A stretch of DNA of 50,445 nucleotides, taken from Oscillospiraceae bacterium (GTDB lineage: Bacteria; Bacillota; Clostridia; UBA1381; UBA9506). Shown piece by piece: positions 35,455 through 44,034 of this stretch; positions within the stretch are counted from its first letter, which is position 1; the number at the start of each line of letters is the position of its first letter. The notes under the pieces were generated by a model that worked only from the letters and a program-made list of their open reading frames with translations, made no database searches and was not told the origin of the DNA. Location: the NCBI GenBank assembly GCA_015069045.1, contig SVJJ01000011.1, positions 1 to 50,445 of the forward strand. Reading direction: 5' to 3'. The translations under genes and the position numbers were made by a program.

Positions 35455-35955
35455 ATGCAGAAAAAAAAAGTATATATCGTGGGCGGGGTTATTGTCCTTG
35501 TCCTTGGCTTAATATTGTTAGCTGGATATTTTGCCATTGATAAAATGTTTTCCATTTTTTCAGATTCCTTTTATCAAGTAGAAAGTGTCCGGCCAACAGC
35601 TCTTCCGGAGGAAACCCTGCAGCCAAATGAATCGCCTGATGCGGCAACACAATCGGCTGCACCACCTTTGGAAACTGCCACACCCAATTTGTTGCCGGAG
35701 AATATGCAATTCTCGGCAAGTGAATCGAAGGCATTGATTGAGAGCGTCTCTTTTAGTGATAAATTACGCGTGATGGCCATATTGCAATCGTCTCTATCGA
35801 GTGAGGAGTATAAAACAATGTTTTCCATGCTCAGTGGTGGCATTAGTCAGGCTGAAATACAAAGGGCTAAGGCAATTTTAAGCCGAAGGCTTTCGCCGGA
35901 TGAGAAAAAAGAGATTTTAGGATATTATCAAAAATATAGTGATTTACTTAAATGA
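35455..35955 (+). CDS. Small membrane-anchored protein of unknown function
   Basis: 166 residues; I do not recognise a family. Residues 5-28 form a transmembrane helix (VYIVGGVIVLVLGLILLAGY); residues ~40-80 are a Pro/Thr/Glu-rich linker; the C-terminal ~70 residues are helical with repeated short elements (SFSDKLRVMAILQSSLS, EYKTMFSMLSGGIS, RAKAILSRRLSPDEKKEILG). The topology suggests a short helical domain outside the cell. AGGAG precedes the ATG. It lies between the dehydratase and the giant SLH protein, which hints at a role in that surface system. Confidence 0.7.
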   Translation: MQKKKVYIVGGVIVLVLGLILLAGYFAIDKMFSIFSDSFYQVESVRPTALPEETLQPNESPDAATQSAAPPLETATPNLLPENMQFSASESKALIESVSFSDKLRVMAILQSSLSSEEYKTMFSMLSGGISQAEIQRAKAILSRRLSPDEKKEILGYYQKYSDLLK

Positions 35956-36003: not shown

Positions 36004-39000
36004 ATGAGTAGGAAGATGAAACAATTTATAGCCCTTTTGCTTACGGTTTGCATGCTTTGTTCAGTGATGCCTATCACGATGGCAGCAACCGTAAATGATT
36101 TTATGGATTTTCCAACCGGATGGTCGAAGGAGGCTATGACAGCAGCAGTTGACAATGGTCTTTTATCCGGTGTTACATCCAATGAAATCAGACCCCAGGC
36201 CAACTTAACCCGTGCAGAGGCTGCGACTATTATTACCCGTGCTTTTGGTGCGGTTACAAAAGCAGATATTTCCAGCTATGTAGATGTTTCGCCTTCTGCC
36301 TGGTACTATGAGAGTATAGCAAAGGCAGTTAAAATGGGTGCTCTTAATGGTAAAAGCAGTACGCATATGGAACCGGATGCACCTATTACCCGTGAGGAAA
36401 TTTTTACTATTTTAGCTCGCGTTTTGGTTTTATCTGATGAAAGCTTATCCGGCCTCAGCCGCTTTGGTGACGGTAGCCTGGTGTCCGATTGGGCTGCATC
36501 TTCTGTGTCAGCGTTGGCGGTTAGATACTATGTTAACGGTGATGATGAGGGTAACGTTAATCCAAAAGCCTACATTACCCGTGAAGAATTCGCGCAGCTC
36601 ATGTATAATACCATTAAAACCTATCTTACCAAGTCAACTGCCTATGAGGGCGAGTTGACCGGTATTGTTGTTGTACGCGTTGGTGACGTTTCGCTTAATA
36701 ATGCTACCATTCATGGGGATTTAGTTCTTGGTGACGGCGTTGGTCTTTCTGCAGTTCTTATACAAAATACAACCATTCAGGGCCGGCTGCTGGCACGCGG
36801 CGGTTACAATACACTCCGCAACACCACAACACAAGATGGTGTGGTTGTTAAAAATATGAATGGTGTTACCAGATTTAACAACAGAGAAACAGAATCTGTT
36901 TTTAAGGGTATGCTTGCATACACACCGGTTCAGTTTATAACAGGTGTGGGTCCTGCCAGTTCTGGCGGCAGCAGTGACGGTAATAACGAAGATATAGGGA
37001 CATATAAGGTTATTTTTAAGGTATTGGATGAGGAAGTGGCAAGATTTTCCATTGAGGAATATGCTACCATTGGTTCCCGTATGCCTTCAGACCCGGTGAA
37101 AAATGGTTATACCTTTCATGGTTGGTATGATGAAAATGGAGACCCTGTTGATAGCACTACAGTTGTAGATCGGCGTATGACCGTTACAGCGGACATGAGG
37201 CTCATTACTTACACGGCTAATTTTCACAACCGTGGCGAAATCATTCCTGTTACCTATACCATTGAGGATCCTTCCCTGCCAAGTTTGCTTACACAAGATG
37301 AAGTGACAGTTCCCGGCGCAGACTATGTACTGGATGGATGGTATGATGGGGATGGCAATCCCGTTTCATCAATTCCGGCTATTTCTATTGGCGCACCTTT
37401 AACCATAGATGTATATGCCCGTTGGAAAGTACCCATTTACTATAATGATGCAGGAGACTATGTTCTGATTATTGAAAATGGGACCTTTGGTCAGCAGTTA
37501 CCGGTTCCCAACGAGCAGCTTGGTTATACATTTGATGGTTGGTACGATGAAAACGGAGACCCTGTTGATGAGAATACTTCTGTCGGCTTAAATGGGTTCA
37601 CTATTGAAGCCAGATTTTCTATAAACACATATATGCTGACTCTGTATGATGATGACGAAACAACAATCCTCTATTCAGATGATTTTGATGTTTTAAATAA
37701 AATCACTTTAGAGAACATTGATTTTGATTCCACAACAGATGGGGTGCAAACTCCCGGTAAAACAGGAAAGGTATTCTTAGGCTGGTTTACAGCTGCATCC
37801 GGCGGCACACAAGTTACGGGGGAAGTAGCCATTCCTGCAGGGGATATCCGTAGTGTTGCTCTGTATGCCCATTGGGAAGACGCAACATTAACTGTTAATT
37901 TTTACGAAGGCTACAATGAAACCTATCGGTATTTAACTGAGTCCGGCATCGAGTCCGGTGCTGTTCAGATAGCCTACGGAAAGAGCTTTGCAGAAGCTCA
38001 ACTAAGCGTACCTCAGCCGAAACGGTCAATTTATAAAGATCCTATTTTCACAATAAATCCTGATGATTTTCCAATGAGTGATGGTTCTTTCTTATATCCC
38101 GCAGAGGAAATTTTATATGCTTATCCGGCGTTATGGTATGTGGATGATAGCGGCAAGATGGTCCCCTTTGATGAAAATGTATCCATCACTAAAAATATGA
38201 GCGTATTTATGCTCTATAAAAACTTTGGTGTTAACCTTTATTTAAACGACGAGACAGCTTTAGTTTCTACATCCTATGAACTTGATGAAACCAGAGCGGT
38301 TGATTCAGCTAAAGGCTTATTAATCAATGGCGGAACAGAGTTAAACCTTGCCATTCAACAAGATCGGATACCAAATTACGATGAAAGAATAGCAGCCCTT
38401 TACAATCGTTTAGCATCTACTGGTGTTATGGATTCATCCGGTAATATTAAAATTTATCCCTTATCTGTCCCGATTTCTCAGTTTATCTCAGAGACAACGG
38501 CTGCCGGCATGATTAAAACATATATTCGTGATGTGATAAACGATCCAACCTTGTTGGAATCTATGTTGACAATGATAGATGCGTCTATATTGGTGAATGA
38601 AATTGGCGTTGAAAACCTGATTGGTATGCTAACGGATGTGGATCTGTTGCAGTTGATTAAAAATCAAAAAGCAGCATCGGTTGATTTCATTTACGGCGAT
38701 TTGACAAGTGCTACTTCCCAATTGCGTGATGAAATTGTTGCCTATGTTCGTACCGATGGGGAGTTCCGCGGCATGCTTATTAATGAAGCAGTGGGCGTTT
38801 TAAAAGGAACCATTACGAATGCACCCATGAAAAGCGCTATATTGTCCTATATTCAGGGACAACTGAGCAGTAACCAACCGAATGATTTGCAAAATTTATT
38901 TGTAGATACTATTTTAACCTCCCTGCGGGCGGCACAAAACAGTACTGCATCTAATCCCTATACTGACCCTTATGGCATTATGTCCACTTTGCGTGGTGGC

Positions 39001-42000
39001 GCATTGTCTGACCTGCTCATGAACTCCTTGCTGCCTGCAAATGATGGCAATCCGGTTACTGACCCCTATGGCATTATGGGAGAAATAAAAACCTATGACA
39101 GTGACTTGAATAAACAAGTGGCCAGCGTGATTTTGGATGCTGTGGATGAGGAGGAAGATTTTGATGAGGATCCTATAACCGGAGAAAGTCAAAATCCGGC
39201 TATTCAATACTTAGTGGGCCAAATTAAAACAGATCATTCAGACCTTCAAATGATTGTCATTGATGATTTAGAGGACAAACTGGCTGCACGGAATGAGGCG
39301 ATCCTCAACAAGGTCATTTTCTATGTAAAGGATCATTTGACTGCTGAAGAAGAGAATATAATTGCAGGTAGCATCAAACAAACTCTGCGGGGCGTGGATG
39401 GTACACTTCGTGAACTTGTTTTAACGGAGGAAAGTATTAAGATATTACTGGAAAATCCCAGCGCTGATACAAAGACTATGTTGATAGGTGAGTTGGTTTC
39501 AGAAGATGTCCTTACCGTTCTTTTGAGCGATTCTACTCTTAAACAAGAGTTGTTGCTTCAGGCTCTTACTAAGACAGACTTTGTTGATTATCTGTATGAA
39601 ATTGACCAGTTTAAATCTTATGTAATTGGTGAGGTTAAGGGATATACAACCACCACCCATCTGCATGAAACATTGGTTAACTTATCATTAACAGACTCAA
39701 TGACAACGGAGTTGTTGTCGGAAATAAAGAGCGATGATACCTTCAAAGCTCTGTTTGCGGCAGCAGATGGGGTTACACCGGAGGGTGAATTACGACAGAC
39801 CGTTTTAGATTCCATTGTATTAAGTGATTATGTGTCTGATGAGTCAGATTTCTGGGCTTATATTTTGGATTATGGGACCTATGGCAACTATGACTTTATT
39901 TCATCTGACATGCTGGCAACTATTCGTAACACATGCGGTAATCCCCATTTGCTATCAGACCCTCAGAAACAATTGGCATATAACGAAGGCTTACCTGTAG
40001 AGGCAAGAAGTGAATTGGAGACTCAATTTGCGTCCTTTAAAACAGGTGTTGTAAATGATTTAGCTGCAGGTAATGATATTGCCAACGAAGATGCAAAGAC
40101 AACAATTAATGAATATATTTTAGAGCTTGTTCAGAATTATGCAAATGATGTAACCGGCCCTGCGGATGATGTTATTGAGAGTATATTACTTTCTTATGTT
40201 CGTGACCTTTTAACAACATCTTCCGGGGATGATGATATTGACGCATTGGTTGAAGAACTGAAAGATGCGTTTATTCAGGATGTTGAGAACGGCACAATTT
40301 CAGTTCCCGATGAGGATATTATTGACTTTGCTGCAACACATACGGACATTATGAAGTCTGTTGTAGAGGATGACTATGATACCATTATAAGCTATATTGC
40401 AGAAGATGTTGAGACTGTTCCGGAGTTAAAGACTCAAATGGATTCTTTACTTAAAAGGAAGGCAGAAGAAATTGCCACTGTGGACATCATAAACCTGCTA
40501 GATGCTATGCTGGTTCATATTGATGAGGTGGACGATGTAGATCCACTTGAAGAACAGGCCAGAGGCTTCATAATCGACGAGATCGACCGCTTGTTGGCAG
40601 ATCCTGCTGATACCACCATTGATGAGGGTGTTCAGTCAGTCATTGCAGGCATGTCTGCTAAGGAGATTCATGCTGAGTTGGTTGATGTTTTGCACCATTA
40701 TGACATTAATGCTATTGTTTTAGCGAATATTCAAACCTATATTAGTGGCTTATCCTTCAGCGAAATACAAACAATAGTCAGCGAAAATGAAACTATGGTT
40801 CGCAGCGCTATTAATACCTACATTAATGGTGACGGAACGGCGGATAATCCCGGTTTAACGGATGCGACGTTGGCTACTAAGGTTCTGCAGCAGGAGGATG
40901 CCGTTCGTGGTGTCATTATTTCTGAGATTGGTGCAATGTCCGAGGATACGATTGCCGGTTATTTAAAGGATTTTCTGAATCCGGAGAAAAATACTAATGC
41001 AGCTAGTAATGAGACAATGGTCCGTAGCTCCCTTGATACCTTCCTTATAGATAGTAATGGCACCAATGCAAGTACGATTACAGGTTTGATTCAGGATTAT
41101 ATTTCTGCCTGTGAAACGGAGAGGCTCAATGGTGATTCTACCAAAGCAGATGCCCTGAAGGAAGGTATTGGTGGATTTATTGATGAATTGGATTCTGGGG
41201 AAGATGAAGATGTTGCCTTTATTGCCGCAAATCGTACATTAATTATCAATGGTTTAAATAATGTTGATATCTCTTCTGTTGTGAATAATGACCTAATTAT
41301 TCAATATATTAATCAATTGGGCGATGATGAAGCCGGCAGAGAACGAAAACGACAGATTGCCGATAAGATTTATGAGGTATTTACAGGCTTGCCTCATTAC
41401 GCACCTTTTATGGACAGCATGCAAAACAACGAGCCTCTCATGGTTACGAAAGAAAATTTGACTTTTATAACCATTGCAAATGCGGCAATTGGTGGTTTGA
41501 CTTATGCTTCTATTACAAGCAATACGGATAACCCGACCTTAGAAAGAGTCGAGCAGATTTTAGGGGAGGAAGTATTAGCACACTACTGTGACACTGCAAT
41601 TGGTGACTATTCAGATGGGTTATCACAGGTAATTGAAGAAGTAGACTTGAGTGTAGATGTAAATGAGAGCGCATCTTATACCACCGATGTAACGGTTTAC
41701 ATTAATATAGTGGATGAAATTCTGGCACCCTTATATGAAAAAGCGAAGAATGAATTGGTAGCAAGGCTGGCAGGTGCCGGGGTATACTATGATGAAAATC
41801 CGTATTTGCAATATTTGGCAACACAAAACTTAATTGGCGTACTGTTTGACGGTGATAGTACTGCAGCATCGGGCAACTTAACAGGTTACACCATTAAGCC
41901 GGAAATGGATTACTACGATCACATGGTTAACACCTTAATTGTAGCGGATGATGCGTTAACCTGGTATGGTGATGAGGAGAATGTTCCTGTTAACGCCTTA

Positions 42001-42672
42001 GACGCAGTAAAAGAAAGCGTAGTGGGAGAAGCATTGTATGCTCACGAAAGAATAGGTGAATTATTAGAAGCCTATCATGTGGAAGGTTCCTTACCATCCC
42101 AATTAGAAAATGTAATTAACAGTATAGACCGCGTCAATGATTTACTGGTTAGCTTCCATTCTCAAATCAGCAACATGTTGAATAGATATCTGGGCAGCAA
42201 TTTGAATCAAAAATTTGAAACGGATCAGGTGTTAGACAATGAAAGATTCCAGACAGCCTTTGATATTATGATTGGTGTGGAGGACCCCGTTTTCACAATT
42301 GACAGCCTTTACGACTTATTCTATCGCTATGATGAGGCACTGCAGGAAAGATTACAAACCTTGATTGATAGCGGTAGGTTACAGGCTGCTGTTACAAGGT
42401 TTGAGGAACTTTCTTTTGGCGGATTAGGCTCCCTGGGAAGTGCAGGTGCTACCTTAGAACAGCAACTGAATGAAATTCGGGATACCGGCAAGGTGCAAAG
42501 TGCCTTTAACTCACTTTACGATGTTCTGGTTGTTGTTGCTGAGCATGGTATCGAGCCCTTCCGTGTAGACGAAAATGTTACTAATATTGGCGATGAACGG
42601 TATGTAGAAGATGCATATGCGTTTAGCTTGCGTGGTCTGACAGTGAAATTGAGTCGTTTTTATGCGGCATAG
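36004..42672 (+). CDS. Giant SLH-domain surface protein with InlB-type repeats and a long helical region
   Basis: 2222 residues. After a signal peptide (MKQFIALLLTVCMLCSVMP region), three SLH domains occupy about residues 30-215 and would hold the protein to the secondary wall polymer. Residues ~215-300 form a short beta-helix-like segment (NATIHGDLVLGDGVGLSAVL). Residues ~334-620 hold several InlB/Flg_new-type repeats, with GWYDENGDPVD occurring at residues 373 and 512. From about 780 to the C-terminus there are ~1400 acidic, helical residues with degenerate repeats and no family I recognise. It is adjacent to another SLH protein and probably shares its transcript. AAGGAG precedes the ATG. 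Confidence 0.88.
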   Translation: MSRKMKQFIALLLTVCMLCSVMPITMAATVNDFMDFPTGWSKEAMTAAVDNGLLSGVTSNEIRPQANLTRAEAATIITRAFGAVTKADISSYVDVSPSAWYYESIAKAVKMGALNGKSSTHMEPDAPITREEIFTILARVLVLSDESLSGLSRFGDGSLVSDWAASSVSALAVRYYVNGDDEGNVNPKAYITREEFAQLMYNTIKTYLTKSTAYEGELTGIVVVRVGDVSLNNATIHGDLVLGDGVGLSAVLIQNTTIQGRLLARGGYNTLRNTTTQDGVVVKNMNGVTRFNNRETESVFKGMLAYTPVQFITGVGPASSGGSSDGNNEDIGTYKVIFKVLDEEVARFSIEEYATIGSRMPSDPVKNGYTFHGWYDENGDPVDSTTVVDRRMTVTADMRLITYTANFHNRGEIIPVTYTIEDPSLPSLLTQDEVTVPGADYVLDGWYDGDGNPVSSIPAISIGAPLTIDVYARWKVPIYYNDAGDYVLIIENGTFGQQLPVPNEQLGYTFDGWYDENGDPVDENTSVGLNGFTIEARFSINTYMLTLYDDDETTILYSDDFDVLNKITLENIDFDSTTDGVQTPGKTGKVFLGWFTAASGGTQVTGEVAIPAGDIRSVALYAHWEDATLTVNFYEGYNETYRYLTESGIESGAVQIAYGKSFAEAQLSVPQPKRSIYKDPIFTINPDDFPMSDGSFLYPAEEILYAYPALWYVDDSGKMVPFDENVSITKNMSVFMLYKNFGVNLYLNDETALVSTSYELDETRAVDSAKGLLINGGTELNLAIQQDRIPNYDERIAALYNRLASTGVMDSSGNIKIYPLSVPISQFISETTAAGMIKTYIRDVINDPTLLESMLTMIDASILVNEIGVENLIGMLTDVDLLQLIKNQKAASVDFIYGDLTSATSQLRDEIVAYVRTDGEFRGMLINEAVGVLKGTITNAPMKSAILSYIQGQLSSNQPNDLQNLFVDTILTSLRAAQNSTASNPYTDPYGIMSTLRGGALSDLLMNSLLPANDGNPVTDPYGIMGEIKTYDSDLNKQVASVILDAVDEEEDFDEDPITGESQNPAIQYLVGQIKTDHSDLQMIVIDDLEDKLAARNEAILNKVIFYVKDHLTAEEENIIAGSIKQTLRGVDGTLRELVLTEESIKILLENPSADTKTMLIGELVSEDVLTVLLSDSTLKQELLLQALTKTDFVDYLYEIDQFKSYVIGEVKGYTTTTHLHETLVNLSLTDSMTTELLSEIKSDDTFKALFAAADGVTPEGELRQTVLDSIVLSDYVSDESDFWAYILDYGTYGNYDFISSDMLATIRNTCGNPHLLSDPQKQLAYNEGLPVEARSELETQFASFKTGVVNDLAAGNDIANEDAKTTINEYILELVQNYANDVTGPADDVIESILLSYVRDLLTTSSGDDDIDALVEELKDAFIQDVENGTISVPDEDIIDFAATHTDIMKSVVEDDYDTIISYIAEDVETVPELKTQMDSLLKRKAEEIATVDIINLLDAMLVHIDEVDDVDPLEEQARGFIIDEIDRLLADPADTTIDEGVQSVIAGMSAKEIHAELVDVLHHYDINAIVLANIQTYISGLSFSEIQTIVSENETMVRSAINTYINGDGTADNPGLTDATLATKVLQQEDAVRGVIISEIGAMSEDTIAGYLKDFLNPEKNTNAASNETMVRSSLDTFLIDSNGTNASTITGLIQDYISACETERLNGDSTKADALKEGIGGFIDELDSGEDEDVAFIAANRTLIINGLNNVDISSVVNNDLIIQYINQLGDDEAGRERKRQIADKIYEVFTGLPHYAPFMDSMQNNEPLMVTKENLTFITIANAAIGGLTYASITSNTDNPTLERVEQILGEEVLAHYCDTAIGDYSDGLSQVIEEVDLSVDVNESASYTTDVTVYINIVDEILAPLYEKAKNELVARLAGAGVYYDENPYLQYLATQNLIGVLFDGDSTAASGNLTGYTIKPEMDYYDHMVNTLIVADDALTWYGDEENVPVNALDAVKESVVGEALYAHERIGELLEAYHVEGSLPSQLENVINSIDRVNDLLVSFHSQISNMLNRYLGSNLNQKFETDQVLDNERFQTAFDIMIGVEDPVFTIDSLYDLFYRYDEALQERLQTLIDSGRLQAAVTRFEELSFGGLGSLGSAGATLEQQLNEIRDTGKVQSAFNSLYDVLVVVAEHGIEPFRVDENVTNIGDERYVEDAYAFSLRGLTVKLSRFYAA

Positions 42673-42735: not shown

Positions 42736-44034
42736 ATGAAAAGAACGATAAGTATTTTGCTAACCATTTTAATGAGTATGTCTGTTTTTTGTGTAAATGC
42801 CATTACTTTTACTGATGTAGATTTGTCAACAGAACAGGGAAAGGCAATTCAGGCATTAGCTAATGCCGGCATTTTAAATGGTAATGGAGATGGAACGTTT
42901 TTACCTAATGCCCCCATTAAGCGTGCAGAACTTTGTAAAATTATAAACTTGATTTTTGGCTATACTGCCAAAGATGAGGTTGGTTTTAGCGATGTTACTT
43001 CCGATAAGTGGTATTACAACCAGGTGTTAATTGCGAAAAAAGCAGGTTATATTAAAGGTTATGAAGATGGTACTTTTCGCGGAGAAAATTATGTTACCAG
43101 AGAACAGGCCTGTGTTATTTTAGCACGGACAGCGAAACTTACTGATAATGGTAAAGTGTCTGCCGTTACAATTGCTGATGAAGTAGCTGCTTGGGCGTTG
43201 CCTTCCGTTCGGTTGGTTATTGCCCATGGTTATATGAGCTTGGAAGAAGGCAACACCTTCCGTGCGACAGAAAATATTACACGGGGTGAGTTTAGCGAAA
43301 CAAATGTAGATTTTGTTAAACCAAGCGGTGGCAGTATCAGTGGCGGCAGTATAAGCGGTGGTTCCAGTGGTGGTCATAATGGCGGTTCCAATAGCGGCTC
43401 TAATAGCGGTTCCAATAGTGGCTCCAATAGCGGCTCTAATGGCTCTGACAATGGAGGCGAGCCCGCTCCATCCACCTATACAATCACTTTTGAAACAAAT
43501 GGTGCAGAGGAAACCATCCAAAGCCAAACCATAGCGGCTAATGGCAAAGCCACAAAGCCTGCCACTCCCCGTAAACGCGGTGGTTATGTTTTCAAAAATT
43601 GGTATACAGATGAAGGGCTAACTGCGGTATATGATTTTAATACACAGGTCACAGCATCCTTTACATTGTATGCCGGATGGGATGCAATTGATTTGGAGAC
43701 TGTTAATGACGAAATGATATATCATCTCGAAAAAGCCAGCGCTGCATTGGTGGAAGGGAAATACAGTTTTGCAGTAGGAGATCAAAGAAACATTATTATT
43801 TATGTTGAAACCTGTATTAATGATGCCATTAGCCAGCAAAACGATTGGGTTATTGATGAAGCCTTTATTATGGAAGAATATGGTCAAGAAAATGGTGAGA
43901 TTGATAAGGCGTCTGACTTATATCATGGACTTACAGAATATGCTCTTACAGCATTTCACCAACAGGTATCTCTTCTTAATGATGCATGTCAAGGCAGTAT
44001 TGCATGGCTATTTAATAAATTTGGTCTTCTATAA
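42736..44034 (+). CDS. SLH-domain surface protein with Gly/Ser/Asn linker and one InlB-type repeat
   Basis: 432 residues. A signal peptide precedes three SLH domains (FTDVDLSTEQGKAIQALANA; FSDVTSDKWYYNQVLIAKKA; and a weaker third around AAWALPSVRLVIAHGY). Residues ~197-245 are a low-complexity Gly/Ser/Asn linker. One InlB/Flg_new repeat (ITFETNGAEETIQSQTI to LYAGW) and a helical C-terminal region of ~115 residues follow. The layout is a shorter version of its giant neighbour 63 bases upstream. AAAGGAGG precedes the ATG; a terminator follows. Confidence 0.9.
   Translation: MKRTISILLTILMSMSVFCVNAITFTDVDLSTEQGKAIQALANAGILNGNGDGTFLPNAPIKRAELCKIINLIFGYTAKDEVGFSDVTSDKWYYNQVLIAKKAGYIKGYEDGTFRGENYVTREQACVILARTAKLTDNGKVSAVTIADEVAAWALPSVRLVIAHGYMSLEEGNTFRATENITRGEFSETNVDFVKPSGGSISGGSISGGSSGGHNGGSNSGSNSGSNSGSNSGSNGSDNGGEPAPSTYTITFETNGAEETIQSQTIAANGKATKPATPRKRGGYVFKNWYTDEGLTAVYDFNTQVTASFTLYAGWDAIDLETVNDEMIYHLEKASAALVEGKYSFAVGDQRNIIIYVETCINDAISQQNDWVIDEAFIMEEYGQENGEIDKASDLYHGLTEYALTAFHQQVSLLNDACQGSIAWLFNKFGLL
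43384..43440 (+). repeat. 12-bp minisatellite inside the SLH gene
   Basis: Nearly five copies of a 12-base unit (consensus ggYtcYaatagY) run in frame and encode the Gly-Ser-Asn-Ser linker. Length is a multiple of three, so copy-number change would alter linker length without breaking the frame. Confidence 0.85.

Follow-up and report, generated by a model that had tools for sequence, protein, structure and literature searches.

The question raised by this locus is what kind of protein a product of 2222 residues can be when Pfam and NCBIfam recognize only SLH domains and InlB B-repeats in it, both within its N-terminal third. The gene (36004-42672, forward strand, an intact open reading frame) lies in a window of 50,445 nucleotides, which is the entire contig 11 of a 1.48-Mb, 97.5%-complete Oscillospiraceae genome, assembled in 26 contigs, in which the region that sets the giant apart is present once. 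The reading that we favor, with a probability of roughly 0.55, is that of an SLH-anchored, fibrillar-adhesin-like surface protein working together with a partner.

The N-terminal third is readily interpreted. An initial segment resembles a signal peptide and is followed by three SLH domains (PF00395, E 3.4e-27) at positions 36088-36630, and the closest solved relative of this N-terminus is the Sap S-layer protein (phmmer E 1.2e-11). A beta-helix-like stretch common to family members follows (xxGDLVLGDGVG...GRLLARGG; 36650-36960, drawn by eye with approximate limits), and then three InlB B-repeats (PF09479, Flg_new, E 1.1e-17; 37003-37890). Wall anchoring by the SLH trio and a stalk made of B-repeats can thus be regarded as established by homology. 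As judged from sequence, residues ~630 to 2222 constitute a module specific to Clostridia, a hitherto unnamed domain family that forms the outer two-thirds of the giant. All on the forward strand, it comprises an N-cap that is first beta and then alpha (residues 630-829; 37891-38490), a fast-evolving helical array (residues 830-1795, 966 aa; 38491-41388), a C-cap that is the most conserved part (residues 1796-2041; 41389-42126; TGYxLKxxxxYYxxxxxxxILxDDAxxWYxD) and a C-terminal tail (42127-42669) with a predicted terminal beta-hairpin, whose signature [DE]xYxhxhxGxhxhxRxh is found in nearly all relatives. A first-pass annotation of this DNA had described a region of no recognizable family starting at 38340; the region is real, but it begins at the N-cap, near residue 630 (37891). 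Its lack of a known family was confirmed by the absence of any Pfam, NCBIfam or convincing PDB sequence match: Pfam gave none over residues 800-1800, and PDB sequence searches with the array, the C-cap and partner profiles returned chance or designed-helix matches only.

A single-sequence search of genome contigs yielded no match, and in these contigs relatives had to be sought with an alignment. Among 101 related genomes, five others carry the region (two from its own genus, two from its family and one from its order), the two same-genus relatives being 40% and 39% identical across its whole length. A profile of the C-terminal part, applied to 391 genomes of the class Clostridia, recovered 15 credible members, the own genome included; a phylum sample of 398 genomes contained no further credible member and one weak partial match (G834, E 5e-5). 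Another weak match (G430, E 8e-4) was read as chance, its gene neighbourhood being unrelated. The named relatives are gut MAGs from goat cecum, water buffalo colon and roe deer rectum, and others are labeled Oscillospiraceae SIG442 and Clostridia E27 bin387. The giant is probably under-counted in MAGs, because contigs often break in or beside its gene (L089, L090, L091, L043). In one such cut-off giant (G040; L015, 2-110), a dockerin-like piece, GDVSADGIRDAKDIILIRRYIAGG, precedes the N-cap; Pfam made no call on it.

Hidden Markov models built for the two ends of the region and extended across the family traced the C-cap in 20 giants and the N-cap, also conserved, in 18; in L049 the N-cap search detected none. 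The array between them measures 0 (L015), 18 (L092), 79, 122, 138, 139, 445, 445 and 566 aa in the shorter members, and 631, 704, 820, 861, 868, 908, 908, 966 (window) and 999 aa in the longer ones. With such a span between conserved caps, the caps are the constant element and the array the variable one. B-repeats vary as well, from 0 (L051) through 3 (window) and 5 (L039) to 13-17 (L042, L041, L011, L047), and complete relatives of the window's 2222-aa giant range from 1005 to 4636 aa. In one close comparison, between the window and L011, identity is 62% for the SLH part, 41% for the N-cap, 36% for the array, 46% for the C-cap and 54% for the tail, so that, of the long pieces of the giant, the array is conserved least; the housekeeping neighbours PyrD and UgpC are 81 to 87% identical, and the giant thus diverges in the manner of a surface protein.

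The second constant element is the partner. Its gene (42736-44034, forward strand), 63 bp downstream of the giant, encodes 432 aa with three SLH domains, Flg_new and a C-terminal helical domain of ~110 aa, and it lies directly 3' of the giant in all 20 loci in which the contig continues. In the class sample of 391 genomes, the partner domain was found in 14 of the 15 giant-positive genomes, the 15th being cut by a contig end, and its 18 strong matches all adjoin a giant or are truncated by a contig end, none being seen in another context; these co-occurrence counts are biased upward, partly by construction, because the partner profile was built from giant-adjacent partners. Since the caps enclose anything from 0 to ~1000 residues of array and the partner is always adjacent, the giant probably serves as a surface stalk or adhesin and not as an enzyme. 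Adhesion and partner docking are inferred; Pfam found no known adhesive domain in the giant, and the C-cap is a candidate for this role. The partner domain and the C-cap are both acidic, with a pI of about 4, so simple charge complementarity does not link them. In the window, a 12/24-bp tandem repeat (43377-43440) encodes a Gly-Ser-Asn linker of the partner, and comparably long repetitive linkers occur in the partners of relatives.

The constancy of the partner also feeds the strongest competing scenario, which we consider possible, if rather unlikely: the giant could be an envelope scaffold held at its two ends, at the N-terminus by its own SLH domains and at the C-terminus by those of the partner, so that it forms arches or cross-links in the wall or S-layer and no free stalk. 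Indeed, the constant neighbour is itself an SLH protein, in which nothing but a helical domain is conserved besides the SLH domains, and the conserved C-terminal hairpin of the giant could complement a partner. Moreover, some members are devoid of array, so that the constant function would reside in the caps. However, the partner domain is the fastest-evolving piece of all (29% identity between the window and L011), which is odd for a fixed interface unless both sides co-evolve. A more speculative arrangement, somewhat less probable still, would have the two caps fold as a single unit from which the array leaves and to which it returns, giving a helical hairpin or closed ring whose size can be adjusted and which the partner SLH protein would clamp to the wall; this would be an undescribed two-component, two-anchor surface system.

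An SLH trio, acidity, secretion and an N-terminus similar to that of Sap would also suit a self-assembling S-layer lattice protein. We nevertheless hold this to be improbable: the giant has no recognizable lattice domains, its presence is patchy even within the genus, which is unexpected for a main lattice protein, and the genome encodes a dozen or more further SLH proteins. Altogether 39 SLH matches above the cut-off, distributed over at least a dozen proteins, were counted in the 1.48 Mb, a large investment in surface proteins.

What, then, is the array made of? The first-pass annotation had called the region from 38340 onward acidic and helical, possibly a long fibre or an array of helical repeats, with heptad-like stretches and perhaps a dependence on calcium. 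The acidity of the region (net charge -164; pI of the array about 4.05) and its nature as a repeat-built helical array on a long surface protein are supported, the two motifs discussed below being genuine traces of repeat units. The heptads are not: hydrophobic residues display no coherent 3.5-residue period and the predicted helices are short, with a median of 11 aa, which speaks against a long coiled coil. Nor did calcium find support, as DxDxDG, EF-hand-loop and RTX (GGxGxD) patterns had 0 matches each in residues 780-2222. AlphaFold2 models, of mean pLDDT 43.2 for residues 628-1600 (5 sequences) and 45.8 for residues 1500-2222 (7 sequences), are usable for secondary structure only, such low values being expected from alignments of only 5 to 7 sequences. 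At this low confidence, residues 829-1600 are predicted to be 72% helical, with 45 helices spaced by ~15 residues. A Foldseek search with the model of residues 1500-2222 returned nothing below E 0.87.

The array could also be a lipid-binding one, its amphipathic helices taking up lipids or other hydrophobic ligands, like the membrane proteins with DUF445 (PF04286). That domain does match the array of L042 above the cut-off (E 1.1e-11) and that of L043 below it (E 1.5e-6). Yet neither the window array nor those of most relatives are matched, and DUF445 may recognize any chain of short amphipathic helices, which is possibly all that is shared. We therefore give little credit to a lipid-binding array, marginally less than to a lattice.

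Two recurring motifs had been noted in the array, NPxTDPYGIM (residues 984 and 1016, a distance of 32) and NETMVRS (residues 1595 and 1669, a distance of 74). Both are there: NPYTD and NPVTD begin at residues 984 and 1016 (units at 38953-39078, forward strand), followed by TDPYGIM at 987 and 1019 (DPYGIM at 988 and 1020), and the two NETMVRS copies are exact. TDPYGIM and NETMVRS are the sole exact 7-mer recurrences in a stretch of 1443 aa, and composition-preserving shuffles produced a mean of 0.0095 recurring 7-mers, with any recurrence at all in 0.85% of shuffles. The TDPYGIM pair has counterparts in L011 and L012, DAYGI and VFGI, ~30 aa apart. Comparison with relatives places NETMVRS in helix 2 of helix-helix units arranged in tandem, which in the window start at residues 1583, 1618, 1645 and 1689 (40750-41070, forward strand) and carry NETMVRS, QEDAVRG and NETMVRS. 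These units measure 27, 27 and 33 aa in both L011 and L012, and the motifs of L011 read NEATVRS, NETEVKG and NETTVRE. The exact copies of the window are 74 residues, that is, two units, apart because the middle copy, QEDAVRG near residue 1631, is degenerate.

Other members have more regular arrays: nine units YIxxLxxDELKAEIxx, a 16-residue single-helix repeat, in L044 (identity-lag z 7.8), and a 17-residue single-helix repeat in L049 (z 5.9). The repeats of the window array are degenerate, and identity-lag analysis gave no clear period. Self-comparison accordingly recovers internal similarity only in part: BLASTP of the single sequence against itself detected the motif pairs and no self-similarity in the rest, and profile self-comparison gave weak off-diagonal pairs, the best at E ~4e-6 and 87% probability, in a run without a column-shuffled null. 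At the DNA level, TRF found no tandem repeat in the giant gene except one 2.4-copy 9-mer. That the array would be mere filler, a drifting and partly disordered acidic spacer of no specific structure, is the least credible of the scenarios, since, for all its fast divergence, the missing period in the window and the low pLDDT (equally expected from alignments of 5-7 sequences), it can be aligned between species at 31 to 36% identity over ~900 aa, has a strong predicted helix content and shows recurring repeat units.

Upstream, 48 bp before the giant gene, lies a gene for a 166-aa protein with a single transmembrane (TM) segment and a helical extracellular C-terminus (35455-35955, forward strand). 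A homologue (36% identity, E 9e-28) occupies the same place in sister species without the giant. In three of these (G002, G004, G009), the slot between the TM protein gene and ugpC is filled by two other SLH proteins of 513 to 541 aa (L106 6625-9880, L107 3096-6341, L108 3062-6336), whose helical N-termini are unrelated to the giant and its partner, and in a further sister genome (G006, locus L109) the slot is empty. Whole SLH gene pairs thus appear to be exchanged at one chromosomal slot among sister species, which points to a surface-switching locus in gut bacteria. We considered the TM protein as a fixed third component of the system and rejected this, as the window-type protein lies ahead of the unrelated SLH pair too, the protein found in f20, f21 and f30 loci is not convincingly alignable with it, and no such protein is present in L013. 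In six loci (L042 1689-2618, L046 13141-14223, L049 14848-15687, L050 13994-14761, L051 8026-8772, L039 11881-12672), the giant is preceded by another TM protein, whose C-terminal helical domain is conserved (YVLxAxF...ECDxxVxxIL...AYxxEKxLxKxYY) and which has no convincing Pfam match. In three f20 genomes, a serine recombinase (Resolvase plus Recombinase, ~280 aa) adjoins the partner gene (L041 2959-3810, L045 2129-2944, L046 2387-3244); no convincing invertible repeats were seen in the two genomes checked. Scans for promoters and terminators gave signals close to background.

Returning to the fibrillar-adhesin-like protein, it might be built and work as follows. By homology, the SLH trio fixes the giant to the cell wall and the InlB B-repeats serve as a first stalk, beyond which lies the new module with its N-cap, short acidic helices, C-cap and terminal beta-hairpin. 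The array, which lengthens this module by anything between 0 and about 1000 residues while the caps are kept, would, jointly with the number of B-repeats, determine how far the C-cap reaches; the length variation is observed, the reach is deduced from it. The C-cap and tail would then be the likely functional end, binding an extracellular ligand or the partner, and the partner would act with the giant, perhaps by docking to the C-cap, as its constant adjacency, the one indication, suggests. Both the domain family and the constant partner domain are new to Pfam, NCBIfam and the PDB, and they occur in uncultured Clostridia of the gut, about whose surfaces little is known. Relatives that share the caps but differ in array length, from 0 to about 1000 residues, form a natural series, in which the contribution of the array is directly testable.

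How does the giant compare with known systems? Like its array, DUF445 proteins contain chains of short amphipathic helices, but they are membrane proteins without SLH domains. Antigen I/II of streptococci has a long stalk whose segments leave and return, so that its two ends meet, an arrangement to which two caps flanking an insert may be analogous; its stalk is, however, of the alpha/polyproline type and its anchor a sortase one. Sap, the Bacillus S-layer protein, shares the N-terminal SLH trio, and the relation is limited to it, as Sap-type lattice domains are absent from the giant. In Periscope Proteins, variable stalk length is a device regulating reach (PMC8201768), and in the giant, too, a region of variable length would set the reach of a distal domain. 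Periscope stalks, however, consist of near-identical tandem repeats at the DNA level (PMC8201768), which the giant does not have, and its array length varies between species (0-999 aa). The closest likeness is with fibrillar adhesins (PMC8286594, PMC9210967), which are very long, secreted and wall-anchored, with repeated stalk domains that include Flg_new, classed as a stalk domain in that work (PMC9210967). The giant has the large length, the surface anchor (SLH) and the repeated stalk (three Flg_new). It differs in having its SLH anchor at the N-terminus, a putative distal domain at the C-terminus and no known adhesive domain, and it possesses in addition a two-capped helical module and, next to its gene, that of a partner.
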